A stretch of DNA of 64,000 nt from Rikenellaceae bacterium (GTDB lineage Bacteria > Bacteroidota > Bacteroidia > Bacteroidales > Rikenellaceae), in contig JAJQEF010000020.1 of NCBI GenBank assembly GCA_021201795.1, positions 92,357-156,356 of the forward strand, read 5' to 3'. The notes beneath the pieces are model-generated. The model did no database searches, was not told where the DNA came from, and was given only the letters and a program-made list of their open reading frames with translations. The position numbers were made by a program, and so were the translations under genes. Shown here in pieces: positions 17,632-29,316 of the stretch (positions are counted from its first letter, which is position 1; each line of letters opens with the position of its first letter).

Positions 17632-17685
17632 TGGCAGGTTCTTGTGATAATTTTGATGTTATCAACTAAAACTACAATAGCTCCT

Positions 17686-18955
17686 ATGAAAATTTTTACA
17701 AAACTTTTATTATCTGCATTATTGCTATGCACATGCGTAGCGGTATCCGCGCAGATAGGAACAAGGCTTCCATCGGAAAAATTCAATTACGAAGATACTG
17801 TAACCGGACTCACGGTGAAGGTTCTTACTAATAGTCCGGAGTTCAGCGACGGCAGGATATATCAAACCCATCCTCAGTGGACCTATGATGACAAATATGT
17901 GGCGTTCCGTTCGAGGCGCACCGGCTCGGGACAACTGTTCTTCGTTAATGAAGAAACAGGAGTTATCGTTCAGATAACTGACGGTCCGGGTAACGGGGAC
18001 TACAATCTGTCCCGCAAAAAACGGACTGCTTTATTTTTTCAGGAGAGAGCCGGGAGAGCCTTCAAAGATTATCGAACTTAACACGGATCGCGTCCTTGCA
18101 GATAGTGAGAAAGGACAAATGAAACATTATTCCGAATATGAAAGGGTGGTGGCTGAATGGCCCGATTCATTGCGTGTATCCGGAGGAATGGGACTCGACG
18201 TCGAAGAAGATATGTTATTTGTCGGTGTTGCTCCTCCCCAGGCAGATGATTGGGTTAATCCTATTGATGACAGCGAACACCGTATTAAGAACCGTACCGG
18301 AGGGATCCGCAGCGTGAATGTACATACAGGAGAAATAAACTTTGTATTTAATGTGGATTTTACTATGGGGCACGTGCAGGCGAGTCCGTTCGTGACGCGT
18401 GAAATCGTATTCTGTCATGAGACCGGAGGAGATTCTCCGCAGAGAATGTGGTTCGGAGATATGGTTAACAATACCTACCGTCCTCTATATATAGAGTCCG
18501 ATTATGAATGGGTAACACATGAAACTATAGCTACTGCGGACCATGTATACTTTAACGTATTGTCGCATCTCGACCCTCTCAGGAAGAAACCATCCGGAAT
18601 ATTTTCTGTAAATCGCAGAACCGGGGATGTTCGTGTTCTGGGTCAGGTACTGGAGCCTGATAAAAATCCGGAATATGCTGACGTTCTTCGCCGTGGAAGA
18701 AGTTTCTGGCACTGTAACGGTTCCTCGGACGGCTATTGGGCTGTTGGAGATGACTTCGCAGGCAACGTGTCTCTTATCAATGTGAAGAACGGAAGGATAC
18801 ACCTTCTTACAACCGGGCACATGATGAAGCCTGACCATGCCCATCCGTATTTCAGTACGGACAATAAAAGGGTGCTTATCCAATCCGGTAAATTCTCGGA
18901 GGGCAAGAGGCTCGCGGTTATGGTCGTGGACATTCCGGAGGAATGGAGGGATTAG
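17686..18955 (+). pseudogene. Oligogalacturonate lyase (PL22 family), frameshifted
   Basis: The two frames together encode an exported PL22-type beta-propeller lyase that splits oligogalacturonides from pectin. There is a signal peptide (MKIFTKLLLSALLLCTCVAV), then HPQWTYDDKYVAFRSRRTG in the first frame, and FTMGHVQASPF, SFWHCNGSSDGYWAVGDDF and DHAHPYFSTDNKRVLIQSGK in the second. The first frame ends at 18081. Reading on one base later from the A6 run at 18016-18021 gives G-L-L-Y-F-F-R-R-E-P-G-E-P-S-K-I-I-E-L and then the second ORF with no gap. A single extra A (or loss of two) explains it. Start is ATG 17686. It may be a real frameshift mutation or a homopolymer error. Confidence 0.85.
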
Positions 18956-19052: not shown

Positions 19053-19766
19053 ATGGAAAATCAACAAGAGTGTCATGGAATGCCCAGAATAGGAGAGCAG
19101 GCGACTTCTTTTACGGCACACACTACAACGGGAAAGATTAGCTTCCCGGATGATTTTAAAGGTAAATGGGTGATTCTGTTCAGCCATCCTTCGGATTTTA
19201 CACCTGTCTGTACATCCGAATTCATAACCTTCGGACATATGGCGCAGGAATTCGAGGACCTTAACTGCCAGCTTATCGGTCTTTCGATAGACGGCCTGTC
19301 GAGCCATATCGCATGGCTCAGGACCATTGAGGAAAAAATCCGGTTCAGAGATATGGAAAATGTGGAAATAAAATTCCCCTTTATTGATGACGTATCTATG
19401 AAGGTTGCTAATTTATACGGTATGCTCCAGCCCAGCGAAAGCGAAACGAAAGCGGTTCGTGCAGTGTTTTTTATCGACCCTAAGGGGATCATCCGTGCTG
19501 TTATTTATTATCCGCTGTCGCTGGGACGTAATTTCGACGAGATCAAACGTGTGTTGATCGGATTACAGACGATCGATAATTTCTCCGTTTCACTTCCTGC
19601 CGACTGGCGTCCCGGAGATGAAGTGGTGGTTCCTGCTCCGCAGACATGTGAGGCGGCAAAAGAGAGAATGGCCGACGATTCGATAAAACATGACGATTGG
19701 TTCTTCTCCCTGAAAGAGCTGCCTAAAGATAAAGTAGAAGAAAAATTATACGAAAAAAATAACTAA
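19053..19766 (+). CDS. Peroxiredoxin (Prx6 / 1-Cys type)
   Basis: 237-aa thiol peroxidase. The peroxidatic motif is HPSDFTPVCTSEF with C53. The conserved Prx6 arginine region lies in KAVRAVFFIDPKGIIRAVIYYP, and a long C-terminal dimerisation arm includes LQTIDNFSVSLPADWRPGD, which places it in the Prx6 subgroup and not AhpC. A Cys in the C-terminal arm (QTCEAAKERM) could act as resolving residue, as in archaeal Prx6 proteins. It is 13 nt from the following Cys-rich gene, so they are probably co-transcribed as a stress unit. Confidence 0.93.
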   Translation: MENQQECHGMPRIGEQATSFTAHTTTGKISFPDDFKGKWVILFSHPSDFTPVCTSEFITFGHMAQEFEDLNCQLIGLSIDGLSSHIAWLRTIEEKIRFRDMENVEIKFPFIDDVSMKVANLYGMLQPSESETKAVRAVFFIDPKGIIRAVIYYPLSLGRNFDEIKRVLIGLQTIDNFSVSLPADWRPGDEVVVPAPQTCEAAKERMADDSIKHDDWFFSLKELPKDKVEEKLYEKNN

Positions 19767-19779
19767 TAACTAAAAGATT

Positions 19780-20127
19780 ATGGACGATAGAATGAAAGAG
19801 TTGGTACATAAGCTCGCGGAATGTGTGCATATGTGCAACGACTGCTTCAATGCCTGCCTCGATGAAGAAAATGTGAAAATGATGAAGGAATGTATCAGGC
19901 TCGATAAAGAGTGTGCAGAGATATGTTCAGCTACCCTGAACCTGGTTTACGGAGGCAGTCATTTCAAAAAGGAAATCCTGAGTTTATGTAAAACTATCTG
20001 TCATCAATGCGCGGATGAATGTAAAAAACATCGAGTGGAGCATTGCCAGAAATGCGCGGACGCATGTGAATCCTGCGCTGCTGCATGCAGCGATTTCTTG
20101 AACGACTCCTATGACGGAGTTTGTTAA
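19780..20127 (+). CDS. DUF326 Cys-rich four-helix copper-binding protein
   Basis: 115 aa with 17 cysteines spaced in CxxxC and CxxC pairs (for example ECVHMCNDCFNAC and EHCQKCADACESCAAAC) along four helices. This is the pattern of DUF326/Csp copper-storage proteins, in which inward-facing Cys bind many Cu(I) ions. No signal peptide, so cytosolic. Follows the peroxiredoxin gene by 13 nt. A copper P-type ATPase exists in the window only as a pseudogene (35985-37466). Confidence 0.88.
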   Translation: MDDRMKELVHKLAECVHMCNDCFNACLDEENVKMMKECIRLDKECAEICSATLNLVYGGSHFKKEILSLCKTICHQCADECKKHRVEHCQKCADACESCAAACSDFLNDSYDGVC

Positions 20128-20143
20128 TTGGCATAATTTCCTT

Positions 20144-20176
20144 GAAGGGCCGCACTGTAAGGGCGGCCTTCTTTGT
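20144..20176 (+). terminator. Terminator after the DUF326 gene
   Basis: 9-bp stem with one bulged G (20144-20153 with 20162-20171), then TTTG. The rest of the gap to 20342 is AT-rich with no clear gene. Confidence 0.65.
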
Positions 20177-20342
20177 TAAATAATGATAAATATTTTTAGC
20201 TGAGAATAAGAATACAATGAGGTGTCCATACCGTGAAATTTATCTGTCGTTTGAAAATTGTTAAACTTACATACAGATAGTTTCAAATGGTATAATGTTT
20301 GTCTCGTGTTAGCTACTATTAACTATTAAAAAATATACTAAT

Positions 20343-20855
20343 ATGGCGACAAAACATGAAAGCGGATCGGATTTTTACGAATTCTTTATCGATGAACTGA
20401 AAGATATTTATTGGGCGGAAAAACATCTTGAGGAATCACTTCCGAAACTTGCCGATGCTGCAACCAGCGAAGAAGTTAAGGATGCGTTTATGAAACATGC
20501 GAGGGAAACAGAACAGCATATTTCTATGGTTGAACAAGTATTTAGGTATATGGGTGAAGAACCCGAAACAAAAAAATGCGAAGCTATGGAAGGGCTATTG
20601 AAAGAAGCTAAAACTATCATTAGCGATACGGAAAAAGATAGTTTCACACGGGATGCAGGATTAATCCTTGCAGCTCAGAAGGTCGAGCATTATGAGATTG
20701 CTACTTACGGAACCCTGAGGATATTTGCAGGATATATGGATCAGGAGGAGGTCGTGGATGTTCTTACACAGATACTCGATAATGAAAAATATACCGATGT
20801 ATCGTTAACAAAAGTTACAGAGTCTTTTGTCAATGTTAAAGCTGCGGTGGAATAG
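20343..20855 (+). CDS. YciE/YciF-family ferritin-like protein (DUF892)
   Basis: 170-aa all-helical protein. FYEFFIDELKDIYWAEKHL is the conserved N-terminal helix of DUF892. Paired EXXH-like motifs (ARETEQHISMVEQVF and QKVEHYEIATYGTL) supply the di-iron ligands expected for a ferritin-like four-helix bundle. Members are general-stress proteins of uncertain reaction. It has its own terminator and lies next to the peroxiredoxin and DUF326 genes, consistent with oxidative or metal stress protection. Confidence 0.9.
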   Translation: MATKHESGSDFYEFFIDELKDIYWAEKHLEESLPKLADAATSEEVKDAFMKHARETEQHISMVEQVFRYMGEEPETKKCEAMEGLLKEAKTIISDTEKDSFTRDAGLILAAQKVEHYEIATYGTLRIFAGYMDQEEVVDVLTQILDNEKYTDVSLTKVTESFVNVKAAVE

Positions 20856-20984: not shown

Positions 20985-21833
20985 TTAAATATCTTCCCTG
21001 TATTTCTGGGGAGTCAGCCCCGTTCTATTCTTAAACCATCGGTAAAAAAAAGATGTATTCGTAAATCCTATGTCGGAAGCGAGGGATTTTATCGGAGCAG
21101 ATGAAAATTTCAGTCTGGATTTGGCTTCCATCAAAAGGAACGAGTCGATTATTTTAGTCGCATTCTTTCCTGTCATTTTCTTTATCACCCGTGATAAATG
21201 CTGGAGCGACAGCCCCATCTTATCGGCATAAAAACTAAGATGGTGTTCGGAAGTGAAGTTATTCCTTAATAGCAGCGTAAACTCCATATATATCTGGTAT
21301 TCGCGCGACATTTTATGTTTGTCAATCTGATAGTGGGCGTGGTACGTAGCCTTGACCTGTTCTATCAGGATATTAAAAACAGACTGTATGGTCACATCTG
21401 TTAATAAATATGATCCATCGGAAAAACAAAATGCAAGGAAATCAAAAAATCGTTTCTGTGTATTGTATTCTATTTCATTCAATTTCTTTACCGGATGTAT
21501 GCTTAATACGGGGATAAGTTCGAAAATAGGCTGCATAAGCGGATTCTTGTCGAGAAATCCGGATGAAAAAGCGACGAATGAGAAATTAAATTCCCTGCTT
21601 ATACTTTGCAGTTGGATAAAACTGTCTGGAATAAGGAACGTAAAATCTCCCTTTTTGAAAGTATAGTCCGATAGGTTTATCGTTACGGTTATTTCACCTG
21701 CCGTGCATATGAAAAAGATTGCGCTTTTAATTCTACACGGAAATTTCGTGTATGATTCGAGTATCTCGAAGTCAATATTTTGACTGGATATAAAATCTAC
21801 AGGAATATCCAGTTTCGGAAAATCGTTATTCAT
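20985..21833 (-). CDS. AraC-family transcriptional regulator
   Basis: 282 aa. The N-terminal part (1-170) looks like a cupin-type sensing domain (FFICTAGEITVTINLSDYTFKKGDFTFL). The C-terminal AraC double helix-turn-helix (about 185-282) contains LSFYADKMGLSLQHLSRVIK and the second motif DIGFTNTSFFYRWFKNRTGL. It is divergent from the DUF4925 lipoprotein/TonB receptor pair with a 146-bp shared upstream region, so those genes are its likely targets (inference from position). Confidence 0.92.
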   Translation of the reverse strand: MNNDFPKLDIPVDFISSQNIDFEILESYTKFPCRIKSAIFFICTAGEITVTINLSDYTFKKGDFTFLIPDSFIQLQSISREFNFSFVAFSSGFLDKNPLMQPIFELIPVLSIHPVKKLNEIEYNTQKRFFDFLAFCFSDGSYLLTDVTIQSVFNILIEQVKATYHAHYQIDKHKMSREYQIYMEFTLLLRNNFTSEHHLSFYADKMGLSLQHLSRVIKKMTGKNATKIIDSFLLMEAKSRLKFSSAPIKSLASDIGFTNTSFFYRWFKNRTGLTPQKYREDI

Positions 21834-21979
21834 TACCGCGAATTTAATACGTCTGCAATATATTCAAAATTTATTTATTATCAACCCTGGATGTTCAAAA
21901 AAGTAAGTCGATTTACAATTCGGGGACTTGATTCATATAATAAAACGACAGACCTTTGCCATGTATAAAACTCTATTTT

Positions 21980-23305
21980 ATGAATAAAATTTTACATTTT
22001 GTATTTTTAACGGTTGCTGCAGTGTTCCTGCTGAGTAGCTGTGATGATTCTGATCCGTATTATGGTTCCGGAGTTCAGTCGGAATTTAATCTGTTATATT
22101 CCAATAGAACAGGTTCTTCCGAAAAATACGGAACCCTTCAACTGAAATATAGCGGTGAGGAATTTTATGGTGCGGATGTCTATTTTGAAAAACAATCGGA
22201 TTATACGGCAAATATCAAGTTGCTAAATGTGGTTCCTGGGGAAGCTGCTCTTATAGAAAATGTAGAGCTCGTTCCGTCGGAAGGTTCTGGATATACCTTC
22301 GGAGGTTCGGCAACAACGGAACGTGGAACGGCTTTAAAATACAGCGGTTCGGTTGTCGTTACGGAAGAAGGATATGAGAACGCCAACAAGAGGCTTGTTT
22401 TATCGCTATCGGATGTGGTCATTCCTGAAAGTTCGGTATTCGTTTCAGGGACATATCCTACTATGAAAATCGATGCACGGAGGGAAACCGGTTATAACGG
22501 AACATTCTATTCCATGCCTGCTTACCTGGACTGGAAAGTTAAGAGAGACGGGAAAACCGAGAGCCTCATAAGCGTTGCCGGAATCGATATGACACTGATG
22601 GTACAGAGACTTCTCGGTTCGATGCTTTATCTTGTTTTACCTGATATTACGTTCCACAAGGACGGTAATCTTACGGTAAAATATGCTGCCCTTCCTGATG
22701 TGGATATGGCTGATCTTATGAACGGTAATGTCGATGCTGGCATGCGTCAGGAAATCAATGAATCACCTAAGAATCTTGTTTTTTACAATGTAAAACGTGA
22801 AACAAGGAATTCCAATCTGGGTGAGAGGGATTATATGTATATAAGGATCAATATAGAGAGCCTGCTGAAAATCGTTAACATAGGCAATATAAATATTGAT
22901 CTCGGAGGTTTGCTCGGAGGTATCGACCTGGGAGGTGACGGACTGGATCTGGGCGAAATAATCAATGTATTACTCGATTATTATCCTAAACTTAACAGTT
23001 TGCTGAATAACGGAATTCCGTTCCTTATAGAGAAAAATGAAGTTTATGTCCCTGAATACGGAACAAGTTATTTTTACGGAGACTATAAATTATATATTGA
23101 AGAGAACGAAATAGGCTGGTTAATAGAGCTTCTTCCCGATATCCTCGATCTTTTAGGTGTGGACTTATCGTCTCTTCTGCAATCTTTGATCGACGATCCG
23201 ACCCTTGCACCTATTCTAGGACCTCTATTGGATAATATCGTAGACGATATGAAAAATACAGTATCGGTAAAACTTGGTTTATACCTTCAAGGTGAAAATA
23301 ATTAA
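21980..23305 (+). CDS. DUF4925 lipoprotein
   Basis: 441-aa exported lipoprotein: signal peptide with lipobox LLSSC (lipidated Cys about residue 21) followed by D-D-S-D-P. The N-terminal half looks like beta-strand repeats related to DUF4925. The C-terminal part holds unusual Leu/Gly-rich stretches: about residues 300-345 (GGLLGGIDLGGDGLDLG) and about 379-424 (WLIELLPDILDLLG and LLQSLIDDPTLAPILGPLL). ATG 21980 starts the signal peptide; an in-frame ATG 24 nt upstream is less likely. The TonB receptor starts 4 nt after its stop, so the pair is an operon; the lipoprotein is probably a surface partner of the receptor. Ligand unknown. Confidence 0.85.
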   Translation: MNKILHFVFLTVAAVFLLSSCDDSDPYYGSGVQSEFNLLYSNRTGSSEKYGTLQLKYSGEEFYGADVYFEKQSDYTANIKLLNVVPGEAALIENVELVPSEGSGYTFGGSATTERGTALKYSGSVVVTEEGYENANKRLVLSLSDVVIPESSVFVSGTYPTMKIDARRETGYNGTFYSMPAYLDWKVKRDGKTESLISVAGIDMTLMVQRLLGSMLYLVLPDITFHKDGNLTVKYAALPDVDMADLMNGNVDAGMRQEINESPKNLVFYNVKRETRNSNLGERDYMYIRINIESLLKIVNIGNINIDLGGLLGGIDLGGDGLDLGEIINVLLDYYPKLNSLLNNGIPFLIEKNEVYVPEYGTSYFYGDYKLYIEENEIGWLIELLPDILDLLGVDLSSLLQSLIDDPTLAPILGPLLDNIVDDMKNTVSVKLGLYLQGENN

Positions 23306-23309
23306 ACGC

Positions 23310-26099
23310 ATGAAAAAATTATTACTACTGACCGTTATAACATTAATTATATGTTCTTCGTCATTCGCTCAAATTGTCGAAGGATATGTTTATGACGATA
23401 AAACAAAAAATCCTTTGATCGGAGCAAGTGTGACTTATTCTTTCAGAGGTGAATACAAAGGAGTTTCGACAGATTCCAGGGGATATTATCAGATCTCGGT
23501 TCCGGACGGAGGTGCGACCGTTATATATTCTTATATAGGATATGAAGAACAAAGCGTGCCTGTCGTAGTTAGCGAAGGAAACACAGCTACCAGAAATATA
23601 TACATGAGTCCGTCGGTTCTTCTTCTCGAAAATGTGGTGGTGAGTGCCGGACGTTTCGAACAGAAACTGAATGAGGTAACCGTATCGATGGAGATCATTG
23701 ATGCAGATGCTATACAAAGACAGATTCCTACTGATCTGGGAGAAGTATTGAATACACTGCCCGGTGTGGATATAAATGATGGACAGCCCTCGATTCGAGG
23801 TGGTAGCGGATGGACATACGGTGTCGGATCGAGAAGTCTAATGCTACTCGACGGGATGTCGGTTCTCGGAGCTGCGAGCGGAGAGATAAACTGGGACATG
23901 ATCCCGATGGAAAGTGTAGATCAAGTCGAGGTTATTAAGGGGGCTTCTTCCGTACTTTACGGTTCCGCAGCGCTTAACGGACTTGTGAACATACGTACCG
24001 GCCGTCCGGGTATCGAGCCTAAAACAAATATGAAATATTATGTGGGTATTTATGATAATCCTTCGAATTCAGACTATATATGGTGGGATAAGGCTATGTG
24101 GACCGATGGTAAATATGCAGTTAAGAGTCCTTTGAGAAATTCTGTTTACTCCGGAGTCCGCAATCCTATGTTCGAAGGATTCGAATTCTCGCATACGAGA
24201 AGAATCGGTAACTTCGATGTATCAGGAGACTTGAATATGCTTACTGACGAGGGATACCGTGAGCAGGGATATCGTAAGCGTTTCCGTATTGGAGGTAATG
24301 TGACCTATTATCAGCCCGGAGAAAATATAGTTAATTACGGTGCCAATTATAATTTCGTAACGGATAAGGCTGCAGACTTTCTTGTATGGCGTTCTCCTAA
24401 AGAGGCACTACAGCCCTCTGCCGTAACAAATATGGCGCGTGAAGAAAATACCTTTAATATTGATCCATTCTTTAACTGGGTCAATCTGGAAAAGAATTTT
24501 TCCCATAGCGTTAAAGGACGGTTTATGTACGAAGCCGATAATATTGCACAGGGTGTTAAAGACAAATCCCTGGTGGAGATTCTGGGTAATCTAGGCACTG
24601 ACATAACCAAGTTTACAGATCTCAGTTCCCTGCTTACAATGGATAATCTGCTTCCGTTGCTTAACAGCGGGACATTGGTTGATGGACTTCTTAATATTAT
24701 AGGAGATATATTCCCTAGCGGAACCACTTCCGATTATATGGATCTTATAGGTTGGTTGATGAATAATCTCGACGGAAATCCTTTATCCGATTTGTCCAAC
24801 ACTATTCCATGGATGGCGAATGTCGTAGAACAAACTCCTAATCCGACATATGTGGATGAGAATTTTACATATTATGTGGACTATCAGTTCCATAAAGATT
24901 TTGGAGGAGCGAAAATAACTACCGGAACCACTTACCACCATGTGACCAATAAATCTGCGATGACTGGTTCGCACAATAGCGACAACATATCCTTATATTT
25001 ACAGTATGACCAGAGGTTCTTCGATCGTCTGAGTGTTTCTGCCGGTGTTCGTGGAGAATATTACAGAGTCGACGGACATTACCGGGAGGCGGAAACAAAA
25101 ATATTCGGACAGAACATTCCTGTAAAACCGATATTCCGAGGAGGCCTTAACTACCAGGCTTCGGAATATACGTTTATCCGTGCTTCGTTCGGTCAGGGAT
25201 ACAGATATCCGTCGCTTATTGAAAAATTTGCCCGTAGAGATGTAGGAGGAGTCGGAGTCTTCCCTAATGCCGACCTGAAAGCTGAAACAGGTGTGAATGC
25301 GGAACTGGGTATCGTACAGGGTTACAAAGTCGGACGTTTTCAGGGATTCTTCGATATTGCAGGTTTTTACACGCAGTATAAGAATATGATCGAATTCAAT
25401 ATCGGATTTTTCGATACGGAAAATTTTAAACATATAAATAGTACTTCTGATCTTTTAAATGCAATTTTTAATGACGGTTCAGTAGGGCTCGGCGCTCAGT
25501 TCTATAATGTCGGTAAAGCGCAGATATACGGAATGGACATTTCGACGACCGGTACTTTTGATATTGCTCCCGGTATGAGGTTCCTTTATAATCTTGGGTA
25601 CATATATCTTGAACCGAGGGATCCTGATTATAAGAAGAAGAACGATGAAGAAAACCAGATAACAGATCCTCTTACGTTCAAAGAAAAATCGAACCCTTCG
25701 CGTTATCTTAAATATAGGCAGAAACATACGTTCAAAGGGACGATCGACTTTGAATGGAAACGTTTTACACTCGGAACAAATCTTCAATGGAAAAGCCGTA
25801 CACTTGCCGTCGATTATATTTTTCTCGATGAGAGAGGTTTAGAAAATGGTCAGTATGGTATTATGGATTATGTACGTCTTGTATTATTAGGTGATATCGA
25901 TGGTGAGACATTCGAGTCTTATTGGAAAAAGCACAATAAAGCATATTTTGTAATGGATCTTCGTACAGGGGTGAAAGTTACGGATAAACTTAATTTCCAG
26001 TTGATGATTTCTAACCTTTTTAATAAAGAATATTCATACCGTCCTATGGCATACGCTCCTCAAAGGACTTATGTAATGACGGTCGGTTATACTTTTTAA
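23310..26099 (+). CDS. TonB-dependent outer-membrane receptor
   Basis: 929 aa. Signal peptide (1-22), a carboxypeptidase-regulatory-like domain (about 24-105: VEGYVYDDKTKNPLIGASV, then a Y-I-G-Y-E-E type end), plug domain (about 115-230: VVVSAGRFEQKLNEVTVSME, GVDINDGQPSIRGG, VEVIKGASSVLYGSAALNG), and a beta barrel ending in a C-terminal aromatic residue (VMTVGYTF). It is not SusC-like: shorter and without the SusC plug signature. An unusual Leu/Gly-rich insertion at about residues 419-502 (LVEILGNLGTDITKF, LLNIIGDIFPSG) resembles segments in the upstream DUF4925 lipoprotein. It imports an unknown ligand with TonB energy; regulation by the divergent AraC gene is likely. Confidence 0.93.
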   Translation: MKKLLLLTVITLIICSSSFAQIVEGYVYDDKTKNPLIGASVTYSFRGEYKGVSTDSRGYYQISVPDGGATVIYSYIGYEEQSVPVVVSEGNTATRNIYMSPSVLLLENVVVSAGRFEQKLNEVTVSMEIIDADAIQRQIPTDLGEVLNTLPGVDINDGQPSIRGGSGWTYGVGSRSLMLLDGMSVLGAASGEINWDMIPMESVDQVEVIKGASSVLYGSAALNGLVNIRTGRPGIEPKTNMKYYVGIYDNPSNSDYIWWDKAMWTDGKYAVKSPLRNSVYSGVRNPMFEGFEFSHTRRIGNFDVSGDLNMLTDEGYREQGYRKRFRIGGNVTYYQPGENIVNYGANYNFVTDKAADFLVWRSPKEALQPSAVTNMAREENTFNIDPFFNWVNLEKNFSHSVKGRFMYEADNIAQGVKDKSLVEILGNLGTDITKFTDLSSLLTMDNLLPLLNSGTLVDGLLNIIGDIFPSGTTSDYMDLIGWLMNNLDGNPLSDLSNTIPWMANVVEQTPNPTYVDENFTYYVDYQFHKDFGGAKITTGTTYHHVTNKSAMTGSHNSDNISLYLQYDQRFFDRLSVSAGVRGEYYRVDGHYREAETKIFGQNIPVKPIFRGGLNYQASEYTFIRASFGQGYRYPSLIEKFARRDVGGVGVFPNADLKAETGVNAELGIVQGYKVGRFQGFFDIAGFYTQYKNMIEFNIGFFDTENFKHINSTSDLLNAIFNDGSVGLGAQFYNVGKAQIYGMDISTTGTFDIAPGMRFLYNLGYIYLEPRDPDYKKKNDEENQITDPLTFKEKSNPSRYLKYRQKHTFKGTIDFEWKRFTLGTNLQWKSRTLAVDYIFLDERGLENGQYGIMDYVRLVLLGDIDGETFESYWKKHNKAYFVMDLRTGVKVTDKLNFQLMISNLFNKEYSYRPMAYAPQRTYVMTVGYTF

Positions 26100-26190
26100 A
26101 TCATATCATTGTATATTCATTCTCTAAATTATAAATTAAGCTGCCTGTTTTAGTGGGCATACCCATGGAAGATCGTTATATATGCAAAAT

Positions 26191-26225
26191 AATAAACCTG
26201 CCTTATAAGGCAGGTTTATTATTTT
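26191..26225. terminator. Bidirectional terminator between the TonB receptor and PL11 genes
   Basis: Perfect 12-bp stem AATAAACCTGCC (26191-26202) with its complement (26209-26220), 6-nt loop, T-rich flanks on both strands; the genes converge here. Confidence 0.9.
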
Positions 26226-26241
26226 ATAATATTTATGAATT

Positions 26242-29200
26242 TTATTTCAGAAGATCCGAGCCTAGATAATATCCGAGATGGGTCGGAGGATTATAACCTA
26301 CGTTTTGATGTACCGTACTCAAATAATAAATATGGTCGCTCATCAGATAAGGGAAACGGTACTCTGTCGGATACGGAGTGGAGAATATACGGATCTCATC
26401 GTCATTGCTGGTAGGGAATATAATTTCTTCACGCCAGTCTCCGAAAATATCTCCGTAGAATGCTGGGGTACTCTTCGTATCGTTTGTATATTTTACATCG
26501 AAGTACCATAAAGTATTGACCCTTGAAATGCCTTCGCCCGGAATATATTCGTCTATCATTGTCTGGGCAAAGAATTGTCTGTTCAGAGAACCTGTCCACC
26601 AGATAGCATTAGTGGAATAGAATACTGCGGTTAAACGGGATCCTCCGATATCATCGATAGTATAGAGTTTGTTGCCGTTGACGTCGTAAACATCGCCTAC
26701 GCTTGTCCACATTTCACATCCTGGATTGTTAGGATCTATATCTGCTACAAGACAACGTCCTACATCGCCTGAATCATCGAAACCGAATATTTCATAACCG
26801 CTTGCTGCATCCCGGAATGCAGCTCCTTTGTTTCCGTCTTCAAAACATGACCATACCTGAAGGCCGGATCTGTTCGGATCGAACTTCCCTAAATGGAGAG
26901 CGTCTCCGTGACCGTATCCAAGACTGTACATTCCCCGTCCGTCGTGGTCTACTGTCATCGCTCCATATATGATTTCGTCTTTGCCGTCGCCGTCGATATC
27001 ACCGAGGGCCATCTGGTGATTGCCCTGACCTGCATATGCTGAATTCTGTCCGTTAGGAAGTGCAGTGAAGTTCCATTTTTTAGTCAGGGTACCGTTGGCA
27101 CGGTTGAAATCCCATGCTTCGAGTACGGTTTTAGCATAATAACCACGAGTTATCAGGATGCTCGGATTGCTGTTTTTTCCATCGAAATATCCGCATCCCA
27201 TCATATAACGGTTCATTCTATTACCCCAGTCGTCTCCCCATGTTGCTGCCCATTCTTCTTTGGGGCCTCTTTCAATGTAGTCCGCGCGTGCGAGTTCTCT
27301 TCCGGTCATTCCATCCAGCACCGAGAAAAATTCCGGTCCTGAAAGTAAACGTCCATCAGATTCTTCTTGATAGAATGTAATTCCGTCGACATTTACATCC
27401 CCTATCTGTGTGCCGTCACCGAAGGTTGTTAATTCAGAGCTTCTAACGATAACATCACATCTTCCGTCACCGTCGAAGTCAGCGACCACGAATGGAGATG
27501 TAGGTTTACCTTGGCTGATATTTGGGCCTAAGCCTACTCTCCACATAAAAGTTCCGTCCATTTTATAGGCTTCTATAAGAGTTTCACCAGGGCTATATCC
27601 GCTGTGATAAACGTCCTGCATCCACGGGTCGCATTCGCGTTTGACAATGAGTTCATATTCTCCGTCTCCGTCGAGATCGCCCGCAGCTACATCCATTACG
27701 ATGTACGGATGGTCTGCGTCAGGAGCTTCCGCATGAAGTAGGGGAATAGAAATATACGGCTGGGCAGCCTTTTGTGCTGTGAAGGCGAGCTCGTCAAGAA
27801 TTTGTCCCGTAGAAGCGTTCCTCAACTGATAGAAGTTATCTTCGTTGAAATTCGATTGTTCATCGAGAAAATTCGATGAATTAACAATAGGCTCCGCATT
27901 AAGTTTTACATAGGTATCGCTGCTTGCTGACTTTCTATATAAGTCGAATCCGAGATTCGGGTCATCATCCGGCATGAACCGCCAGCTTACAAGTGCACTA
28001 TTGCTTAAAGTAGGAGCCTGTGCGTTCCAAAGGCCCTGCGTAAATACCCGTGTCGCCCACATTAGGCGTGCTCCGAAAGAAGCGGACAGTTCCGGCGCTG
28101 CTCCCTGATAGATTGTTACCGTCTGTTCTTCTCCTGTTCTTGTCGCAGTGAAAATGATTTTTCCCGTACGTGCGGATCCGAAGTTTTGTGATGCTGAGAA
28201 TACGAAACTTTCTTCTCTTAATGATTTAACAGCGACTGTTTCTTTCATTTTGAGCCAATCTTGTTGGGAGCCTTCATAATCAAACCGGTAACTATAATCT
28301 TCGGTATTCGTTTTCATGATCACTTCGAACGTGAAGCTGTTATAATCGATCTCGTATTCATCGCGGGTTTTAACGATAGCATCCCTGTACGATTGAGTTA
28401 CGTAAACCGTATCGCTTACGTTGATACCATTTGTGAATGCGATTTTTGCGGTACGATTTTCTTCCACATTGTCATAACTGTCGATTTCGAAATAAATCTC
28501 ATCGACTTTAAGGGATTTGTAATCAGGGGTTTCGATATTTCTGATCCAATCAGGGTTATTGACTATCTCGTAACTGTAGTTTACGTTACTTTTAATCACT
28601 ACCCTCAGTACACCACCTTCAAAGTCAACTATCTGGTTTTCTGCCGATGCAACTATACGTTCTTTCATATCCTGATATATGTATATCGTATCGGCGAGAT
28701 CGGAATAATCACCCAGTCCGATTATATGAATTTCTCCGGAGCGACTTGTCCATACATCTTCTTCGGTGATAGCAGCAATATCGAAAGAAAGAGTCTTTGT
28801 CGTTAAGGCTTTGGTTCCATTGTACTTTATCCAAGGGTAGGCGGATGGAACAGACACCTTGTAATCGACATTGCTTTCTACAGTTATTTCTATCAGCATC
28901 CCGTCTGCGGGAACTTCCCATTTACTTTTGGAAAGAATAAGTGCATCCTTGCCTTTTTGAACAATGGTAACGGTATTTTTACCGATAGTGATGTTGGCGG
29001 ACCTTTCGTCGTTAAGTGGATTTTCTTCCGTGATGCTCAAAGTCACAGAAGTAGTTCCCGCACTTCCGCTGGAGGGATAAAGTTGTAGCCAGTTAACTTC
29101 GCTTTGAGTTCCCGAAGTAATCGATGCAGACCAGGCTTCGGAGGAGACAACTTCAAATGTTGTGGAAGATCCCAATTTGGAAGATAGTACGATACCTTCT

Positions 29201-29316
29201 TCCGGAATCCCTTTTAAATAAACCGGATCGTAATCTGAATCCAATTCCTTATCATCTTTGCTGCAACTTGCGAAAATAATTGCAAAGAAGAATAAAAAAA
29301 GTAATTTTTTGCTCAT
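26242..29316 (-). CDS. Rhamnogalacturonan lyase (PL11 family) with N-terminal BACON repeats
   Basis: 1024-aa lipoprotein (lipobox IFASC, Cys about 18). Residues about 40-405 hold four BACON-type beta domains, each ending in a strand such as VTIVQKG, IYIYQD, VYVTQS or VTIYQG. A fibronectin-like domain (about 410-500: SALVSWRFMPDDDPNLGFDLYRK) follows, then the PL11 beta-propeller (about 505-1024). The propeller has calcium-binding DxDGDG motifs (AGDLDGDGEYELIV, VADFDGDGRCDVIV, LGDIDGDGKDEIIYG) and the conserved YGHGDALHLGKFDP. It cleaves the rhamnogalacturonan I backbone at the cell surface. PL22, SGNH esterase and GH88 genes in the window fit pectin use. Monocistronic. Confidence 0.93.
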   Translation of the reverse strand: MSKKLLFLFFFAIIFASCSKDDKELDSDYDPVYLKGIPEEGIVLSSKLGSSTTFEVVSSEAWSASITSGTQSEVNWLQLYPSSGSAGTTSVTLSITEENPLNDERSANITIGKNTVTIVQKGKDALILSKSKWEVPADGMLIEITVESNVDYKVSVPSAYPWIKYNGTKALTTKTLSFDIAAITEEDVWTSRSGEIHIIGLGDYSDLADTIYIYQDMKERIVASAENQIVDFEGGVLRVVIKSNVNYSYEIVNNPDWIRNIETPDYKSLKVDEIYFEIDSYDNVEENRTAKIAFTNGINVSDTVYVTQSYRDAIVKTRDEYEIDYNSFTFEVIMKTNTEDYSYRFDYEGSQQDWLKMKETVAVKSLREESFVFSASQNFGSARTGKIIFTATRTGEEQTVTIYQGAAPELSASFGARLMWATRVFTQGLWNAQAPTLSNSALVSWRFMPDDDPNLGFDLYRKSASSDTYVKLNAEPIVNSSNFLDEQSNFNEDNFYQLRNASTGQILDELAFTAQKAAQPYISIPLLHAEAPDADHPYIVMDVAAGDLDGDGEYELIVKRECDPWMQDVYHSGYSPGETLIEAYKMDGTFMWRVGLGPNISQGKPTSPFVVADFDGDGRCDVIVRSSELTTFGDGTQIGDVNVDGITFYQEESDGRLLSGPEFFSVLDGMTGRELARADYIERGPKEEWAATWGDDWGNRMNRYMMGCGYFDGKNSNPSILITRGYYAKTVLEAWDFNRANGTLTKKWNFTALPNGQNSAYAGQGNHQMALGDIDGDGKDEIIYGAMTVDHDGRGMYSLGYGHGDALHLGKFDPNRSGLQVWSCFEDGNKGAAFRDAASGYEIFGFDDSGDVGRCLVADIDPNNPGCEMWTSVGDVYDVNGNKLYTIDDIGGSRLTAVFYSTNAIWWTGSLNRQFFAQTMIDEYIPGEGISRVNTLWYFDVKYTNDTKSTPAFYGDIFGDWREEIIFPTSNDDEIRIFSTPYPTEYRFPYLMSDHIYYLSTVHQNVGYNPPTHLGYYLGSDLLK

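Follow-up and report, generated by a model that had tools for sequence, protein, structure and literature searches.

The window, a stretch of 64,000 nucleotides from a Rikenellaceae bacterium (GCA_021201795.1, contig JAJQEF010000020.1), carries a lipoprotein gene of the DUF4925 family that is directly followed by a gene for a TonB-dependent receptor with a large insertion in its barrel, and next to them, in divergent orientation, a gene for an AraC-family regulator. The pairing of DUF4925 with such receptors is real but not obligatory. We favour, with moderate confidence, the interpretation that this two-gene, AraC-linked unit is a lipoprotein-assisted TonB-dependent importer with the DUF4925 protein as lid and a helical domain in receptor loop 4. 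The observed gap of only four bases between the two genes and the strong terminator-like hairpin behind the receptor support such a unit. The receptor gene begins with an ATG at 23310 and its stop codon ends at 26099; for all three genes, the coordinates in an interpretation previously made from the DNA letters alone (the sequence-only reading) were correct. The features of the region are the following:

20985–21833, minus strand: AraC-family regulator (Pfam HTH_18, E 1.3e-17; neighbourhood comparison)
21834–21979, plus strand: intergenic region between AraC and lipoprotein genes, with a conserved box and promoter-like elements (alignment of 10 intergenic regions)
21980–23305, plus strand: DUF4925 lipoprotein of 441 residues (Pfam PF16272, E 7.6e-20, residues 53–297)
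22079–22426, plus strand: N-terminal beta domain of the lipoprotein, residues 34–149, a calycin-like candidate (AlphaFold2 model; VIA-align Z 7.9 to 3rwx)
22877–23014, plus strand: first Leu/Gly segment of the lipoprotein, residues 300–345, a low-confidence Gly-rich linker with helix 324–344 next to it (AlphaFold2 model; composition)
23114–23251, plus strand: second Leu segment of the lipoprotein, residues 379–424, with helices 375–391, 396–403 and 410–424 and their links (AlphaFold2 model; composition)
23310–26099, plus strand: TonB-dependent receptor of 929 residues with a 22-strand barrel in the model (Pfam; AlphaFold2; Foldseek)
23376–23642, plus strand: CarboxypepD_reg-like domain, receptor residues 23–111 (Pfam)
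23667–23981, plus strand: Plug domain, receptor residues 120–224 (Pfam)
24546–24851, plus strand: predicted extracellular loop 4 of the receptor with the helical insertion, residues 413–514 (length comparison; AlphaFold2 model)
24711–24761, plus strand: conserved core of the insertion, receptor residues 468–484 (column conservation in 38 receptors)
26186–26225, plus strand: strong terminator-like hairpin of 18 pairs after the receptor gene (computed hairpin)

Relatives of the receptor were collected by scanning genome contigs with an 11-row alignment, which gave 251 stretches encoding a relative; of these, the 79 best distinct loci were compared. Among 55 loci with a long, insertion-type receptor, the window excluded, a DUF4925 gene is adjacent at 23, a short and weak match is present at two, none is adjacent at 22, and eight cannot be judged owing to contig ends. 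The DUF4925 profile used for this count was built partly from the same loci; the adjacency itself was initially noticed with a smaller set. In 17 of the 23 pairs the genes are 9–40 bases apart; the 23 DUF4925 genes include one downstream of the receptor, one in divergent orientation and one with a broken reading frame. An AraC-related gene is divergent at 13 of the 23 paired loci and is kept at three of the 22 unpaired ones. For two of these 22, L082 and L092, the downstream flank is not visible. The region between AraC and lipoprotein genes is conserved in 10 aligned loci and contains a shared box, a TTG near -33 and a TTTG near -7, elements that we take to be the Bacteroidota-type promoter consensus. 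This conservation is consistent with joint regulation, possibly by the AraC-family protein. The AraC association and the conserved promoter-proximal region agree with the proposal in the sequence-only reading of an uptake system with its own regulator, but "self-contained" was an overstatement; the lipoprotein-receptor unit showed no transporter of the inner membrane.

Beyond adjacency, the insertion and DUF4925 co-occur more often than expected. In 393 Bacteroidales genomes, for which the best eight and best four candidates per genome were scored, a full insertion was found in 11 genomes and DUF4925 at E <1e-14 in 11, with both in six (0.31 expected, p 4e-8). This cut-off was chosen after viewing the list; at E 0.001, DUF4925 occurs in 33 genomes and both again in six (0.92 expected, p 8e-5), while counting by family, with an assumed 100–120 families, gives p of about 0.001–0.002 at the stricter cut-off. 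Co-occurrence, which had been suggested as a check on the pair, is thus above expectation but not obligatory. In 17 of the 22 genomes with unpaired loci, DUF4925 is encoded elsewhere in the genome, and in the 13 of these with inspected loci no receptor of the window's family was found beside the distant gene. Conversely, 16 genomes with a receptor-less DUF4925 gene were searched for an insertion-bearing receptor: nine have one and none was found in the other seven, where two of the DUF4925 matches are weak (G031 and G056). In another set, comprising 30 genomes, the PF16272 model alone detected DUF4925 in 17.

In a quick receptor tree with SH-aLRT (approximate likelihood-ratio) support only, paired loci occur basally in the insertion clade as well as in several of its sub-clades. 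Because paired loci are scattered through this clade, the pairing with DUF4925 is probably ancestral and would have been lost later, for example in the Parabacteroides distasonis group and in Paludibacteraceae. In the DUF4925 tree, nine receptor-less proteins, including those of the P. distasonis group, form a separate clade (97/93 support) and further receptor-less proteins fall among the paired ones; fragments L043 and L046 and unselected rows are omitted from the DUF4925 trees and counts. L154, labelled ALONE in this tree, lies at a contig end beside an AraC gene in the genome of L045 and may be paired after all. The window's own genome, a draft of 2.48 Mb in 53 contigs, has a single PF16272 match, the one in the window, and one full-length match to the receptor, with partial matches at six other places. 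It also contains two distant DUF4925-like lipoprotein genes in tandem (L167:6276-8732), without a receptor of the window's kind in the surrounding 13 kb. In Parabacteroides gordonii (L150:5117-11908), another DUF4925 gene follows genes for a SusD-family protein and a 1109-residue FGE-sulfatase-domain protein, and elsewhere a DUF4925 gene is found next to one for a polysaccharide lyase 8 (L155) or a beta-galactosidase (L163).

The lipoprotein scores well above the gathering cut-off of PF16272 (72.1 vs 28.5 bits, profile positions 1–229 of 324), and all 23 rows of the DUF4925 alignment match this model with E of at most 0.1. DUF4925 was the sole Pfam match of the lipoprotein up to E 1, with none to HmuY, SusD, propeller or DUF4374 families. 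Searches for solved relatives gave none at E 1 with the single sequence and none below 0.04 with the alignment profile, and a scan of genome contigs with the lipoprotein sequence alone found nothing. The AlphaFold2 model (23 rows; mean predicted local confidence, pLDDT, 79.7; predicted template-modelling score, pTM, 0.76) is mainly beta, with helices that include 205–219, 292–301, 324–344, 375–391, 396–403 and 410–424 and a Gly-rich part at 302–320 with pLDDT below 50. With VIA-align, residues 34–149 reached Z 7.9 to 3rwx (97 aligned residues, root-mean-square deviation 2.9) and 5.2 to AimA (6b7l), and residues 148–441 reached Z 4.2–4.5 to lipocalin-like chains, values that according to the tool's own warning can reflect a common arrangement only. 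Both 3rwx and 6b7l are, as we assume, calycins. The model suggests that the DUF4925 lipoprotein may be a calycin-type protein; none of the 23 homologues has a calycin Pfam match above cut-off. The lipobox Cys21 is followed by DDSD, and 20 of the 23 homologues have a lipobox with acidic residues behind the cysteine; of the three that do not, two are explained by a wrongly chosen cysteine. The CDDSD of the window lipoprotein is similar to a surface-export signal that was tested experimentally in Bacteroides and is described in the available text of PMC6222051. The lipoprotein has a predicted surface-export signal and an adjacent receptor gene, as would be expected for a lidded importer.

The receptor combines CarboxypepD_reg-like, Plug and barrel domains according to Pfam, and its AlphaFold2 model (58 rows, pLDDT 81, pTM 0.77) has a plug and, by our own count, 22 barrel strands, which identifies it as a TonB-dependent receptor. 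Foldseek aligned the model to Cir with E 1.5e-31, and the list of its 50 nearest solved structures consists of receptors of the Cir/BtuB/FepA type and other small-ligand receptors, a resemblance in the model that would support the importer reading. In NCBIfam, 29 models matched and each of the 25 listed stayed under its cut-off, including TIGR01779 for the vitamin B12 receptor BtuB (114.3 vs 599.7 bits). Measured as residues between fixed anchors, with the truncated L092 and L116 left out, the insertion region comprises 103–191 residues in all 54 long relatives measured and 116 in the window, compared to 18–20 in 25 rows from 23 loci with short receptors. The proposal that the Leu-rich receptor stretch is an insertion into the barrel, here of about 100 residues, was borne out, and the proposal that it is helical agrees with the model. 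The insertion is modelled as six short helices (421–505) between barrel strands 7 and 8 (397–412 and 515–530), with a confidence of 51–79 in blocks of ten residues, and by our strand count would sit in extracellular loop 4. In 38 of 55 aligned receptors used for conservation, the window included, its conserved core consists of N-M-G at 427–429 and FPxAxxADYxDLIxWxM at 468–484; the window departs from the latter motif at two positions, 471 (G) and 474 (S). Of the 18 leucines in the window's insertion, 16 occupy columns in which another residue is more frequent or Leu accounts for no more than 55%, the exceptions being L425 and L479.

If the unit is an importer, the lipoprotein would be exported to the cell surface, bind a small and probably hydrophobic or amphipathic ligand and cap the receptor, which would import the ligand with energy provided by TonB. 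The helical mini-domain of loop 4 might touch the cap, or gate and receive the ligand, in a role comparable to that of the ligand-dislodging receptor loops of BtuBG and XusAB. We propose the cap function of DUF4925 and the contact of loop 4 with cap or ligand because of these two precedents. In BtuBG of Bacteroides thetaiotaomicron, a lipoprotein forms a lid on a TonB receptor whose loop EL8 destabilises the bound ligand (available text of PMC10404256), and in XusAB, likewise a lipoprotein lid on a TonB receptor, the extracellular loop between beta strands 7 and 8 is implicated in ligand release (available text of PMC13142918). The shared plan is thus a TonB-dependent receptor with a surface lipoprotein, and the XusA loop is by strand count the same as loop 4. 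The lids differ: BtuG is a beta-propeller and XusB a DUF4374 beta-propeller, whereas the window lipoprotein has neither a propeller nor a DUF4374 match, so that Pfam, which finds DUF4925 only, places it in neither lid family, and the extra element of its receptor, a helical domain in loop 4, sets it apart from BtuBG. SusCD systems are also lipoprotein-receptor pairs of Bacteroidota, but the window lipoprotein lacks a SusD match and its receptor has the small-ligand receptors named above as nearest listed structures. The lipoprotein is a member of DUF4925 by score, a family for which Pfam describes no function and which has receptor-less members. Its N-terminal domain may resemble bacterial calycin- or lipocalin-like lipoproteins (3rwx, AimA, Pfam Calycin_like), but the lipoprotein has no calycin Pfam match above cut-off and is similar to lipocalins in its C-terminal half only at Z of about 4.5. 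The unit therefore looks like a variant of lipoprotein-assisted TonB uptake with an unrelated, fast-evolving and possibly calycin-like lid and a clade-specific helical loop. Lipoprotein-capped TonB importers are described for glycans, vitamin B12 and siderophores in the available parts of PMC13142918 and PMC10404256. If our interpretation holds, it adds a family of lids for which sequence searches gave no solved relative, together with a loop-borne helical domain, and the recurrence of the pair in many Bacteroidales genomes, including Parabacteroides, would define a nutrient route. In a literature search we recognised no paper describing the DUF4925-receptor pair, which is not proof of absence.

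Several observations weigh against this interpretation. At the 22 long-receptor loci without adjacent DUF4925, the insertion is visible in 21 (L092 is truncated), and in five of the corresponding genomes, all drafts, the DUF4925 profile found no such gene at all. Insertion-bearing receptors without a DUF4925 partner, which the sequence-only reading had regarded as the decisive counter-evidence, thus exist and contradict that reading in part; the lipoprotein-receptor pair recurs but many loci do without it. In the association tests, the models derive in part from paired loci, and related genomes were counted as if independent. The calycin-like fold is suggested by a Z of 7.9 in one domain and of about 4.5 in the other, and no Foldseek match of the lipoprotein model reached E 0.001. 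Nor does any gene of the unit point to the ligand. Finally, covariation between insertion and DUF4925 is not specific: a first partial Mantel test (r 0.32, p 0.0005) had indicated co-evolution, which we rejected as the signal was lost under controls (partial r 0.16, p 0.055). In the controlled test, which used 14 receptor segments as controls, a quadratic correction and 22 loci with 41 missing EL1 distances mean-filled, segment 515–570 (0.43) and the N-terminal region (0.23) exceeded the insertion (0.16).

The helical domain could instead be the receptor's own ligand gate, unrelated to DUF4925, with the lipoprotein as an added accessory, and we rate the chance of this as only a little short of even. 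Such a gate would explain that the insertion is present in all measured long relatives, whatever their neighbour, that its core motif is conserved receptor-wide and that no insertion-specific covariation was detected. It accounts less well for the DUF4925 pairing across the whole insertion clade and for the short-receptor loci, at which neither insertion nor DUF4925 match was found. Insertion and DUF4925 may therefore both have been acquired along a single stem.

As claimed in the sequence-only reading, both proteins have unusual stretches rich in Leu, Gly, Ile and Asp: these residues make up 32 of 46 positions in lipoprotein segment 1, 30 of 46 in segment 2 and 42 of 84 in the receptor segment, values that the best window equalled in 2, 11 and 20 of 5000 within-protein shuffles, respectively. 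Among 43 non-overlapping open reading frames (ORFs) of at least 150 residues in the window, the two proteins rank first and second by these four residues; by Leu only, they are first and second with 46-residue windows and second and third with 84-residue windows. For Leu alone, the receptor segment is exceptional (9 of 5000 shuffles), whereas lipoprotein segments 1 (3948 of 5000) and 2 (447 of 5000) are not. A fraction of at least 0.5 of the four residues is present in segment 1 of five and in segment 2 of 11 of the 23 aligned lipoproteins, window included. In the insertion, it amounts to 0.42 with and 0.35 without DUF4925 (24 vs 24, p 5e-5), and Leu alone to 0.14 and 0.13 (24 vs 24, p 0.6), both without regard to kinship. 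Lipoprotein and receptor segments show no significant similarity (best blastp E 0.32), and homology between them was rejected on this ground. The further suggestion that the Leu-rich stretches form a matched, shared binding surface is not supported, as the segments are not homologous and no insertion-specific covariation was found.

Short-receptor relatives have other partners. Directly upstream of 11 of 23 short receptors, often with overlapping stop and start codons, lies a gene for a lipoprotein of 132–145 residues, and at five loci the neighbour encodes a secreted protein, aligned at 25–29% identity; of two of these scanned, one passes the cut-off of a sorting domain of the type IX secretion system (T9SS) and one is just under it. 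Six short-receptor loci lack such a neighbour and one ends before its position. The small lipoproteins have weak lipocalin-like Pfam matches (GH43_C in 4 of 11, Lipocalin_4 in 3 of 11, best E 0.008), and no solved relatives below 0.7 were found by sequence. Their kinship to DUF4925 was considered and rejected, since profile comparison aligns the signal peptide only. Because a lipoprotein or a secreted protein is encoded beside many of the short receptors, a surface partner seems to be a habit of the receptor family, with DUF4925 as the version of the insertion clade. It is a speculative and rather unlikely extension that DUF4925-receptor pairs form an undescribed class of lidded importers for a lipophilic molecule, in which an amphiphile is handed from a calycin-type lid to the clade-specific helical domain of loop 4, the lid being exchanged in more distant relatives for different partners that are calycin-like or secreted by the T9SS. 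One Bacteroidetes metagenome-assembled genome has the short receptor in three tandem copies (L111:937-8541). In Odoribacter laneus (L049:3828-5678), three small ORFs precede the receptor, and the two scanned resemble precursors of lanthipeptides or GG-leader ribosomally synthesised, post-translationally modified peptides, just under NCBIfam cut-offs. In six Parabacteroides loci (L065, L067, L070, L075, L078 and L080), the receptor is directly downstream of an ORF of about 1950 residues, alike by eye, which in L080 was scanned and is the T9SS gene sprA (PF14349, 4.2e-204). As this adjacency is confined to related Parabacteroides loci, we did not use it as evidence for a link to the secretion system.

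An unlikely alternative to the lidded importer is a unit for lipopolysaccharide (LPS) or membrane lipids, in which lipid A-like amphiphiles would be the ligands of DUF4925 and material derived from lipids the cargo of the receptor. At five Parabacteroides-type loci (L151, L160, L161, L163 and L165), a receptor-less DUF4925 gene is convergent to a gene that in the scanned L160 copy encodes an LptF/LptG permease and begins alike by eye in the other four; the next gene is presumably tgt. Convergent instead of co-directional orientation makes this neighbourhood a weak argument. A P. distasonis DUF4925 protein was reported to bind LPS (Guo et al., 2026, as cited in the available text of the review PMC13333682), but the P. 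distasonis group falls into the receptor-less clade set apart from the paired proteins. Our data supply a genomic setting for this family, for which LPS binding was recently reported via that review.

In all eight locus pairs compared, the lipoprotein has evolved more rapidly than the receptor of the same operon, with 1.7–6.5 times the non-synonymous divergence (dN), though some pairs share a locus and not all are independent. Compared with its nearest relative, the window shows 38% identity in the lipoprotein vs 79% in the receptor (dN 0.64 vs 0.14). This would fit a decoy or shield that protects the receptor from phages, bacteriocins or antibodies without binding a ligand, but rapid drift of a cap gives the same pattern, and the ratio of dN to synonymous divergence of 0.07–0.22 in the six of eight pairs where it could be computed indicates purifying rather than diversifying selection, so that we regard a decoy as improbable. 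A haem or haemoglobin uptake pair similar to HmuR/HmuY is very improbable, since the best NCBIfam match of the receptor, TIGR01785 for haem receptors (9.6e-40), reaches 136.7 bits vs a cut-off of 316.85 and is accounted for by general receptor similarity, and the lipoprotein has no HmuY match in Pfam at E 1 or better.

Next to the lipoprotein-receptor unit, a rhamnogalacturonan lyase (RGL11) with BACON domains is encoded at 26242–29316, and the region with this gene and a pectate-lyase-like gene looks pectin-related; among 14 loci compared, it is common to L031 only. An oligogalacturonate lyase-like gene at 17656–18955 is split into two ORFs (17656–18081 and 18119–18955), which is a frameshift or an assembly error; its relative in L031 (10306–11577) is a single ORF of 423 residues. 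Beside the AraC gene, at 19053–20855, genes for a peroxiredoxin, a Cys-rich DUF326 protein and a ferritin-like DUF892 protein follow in series, and of the 14 loci L031 alone has both the peroxiredoxin and the DUF326 gene.

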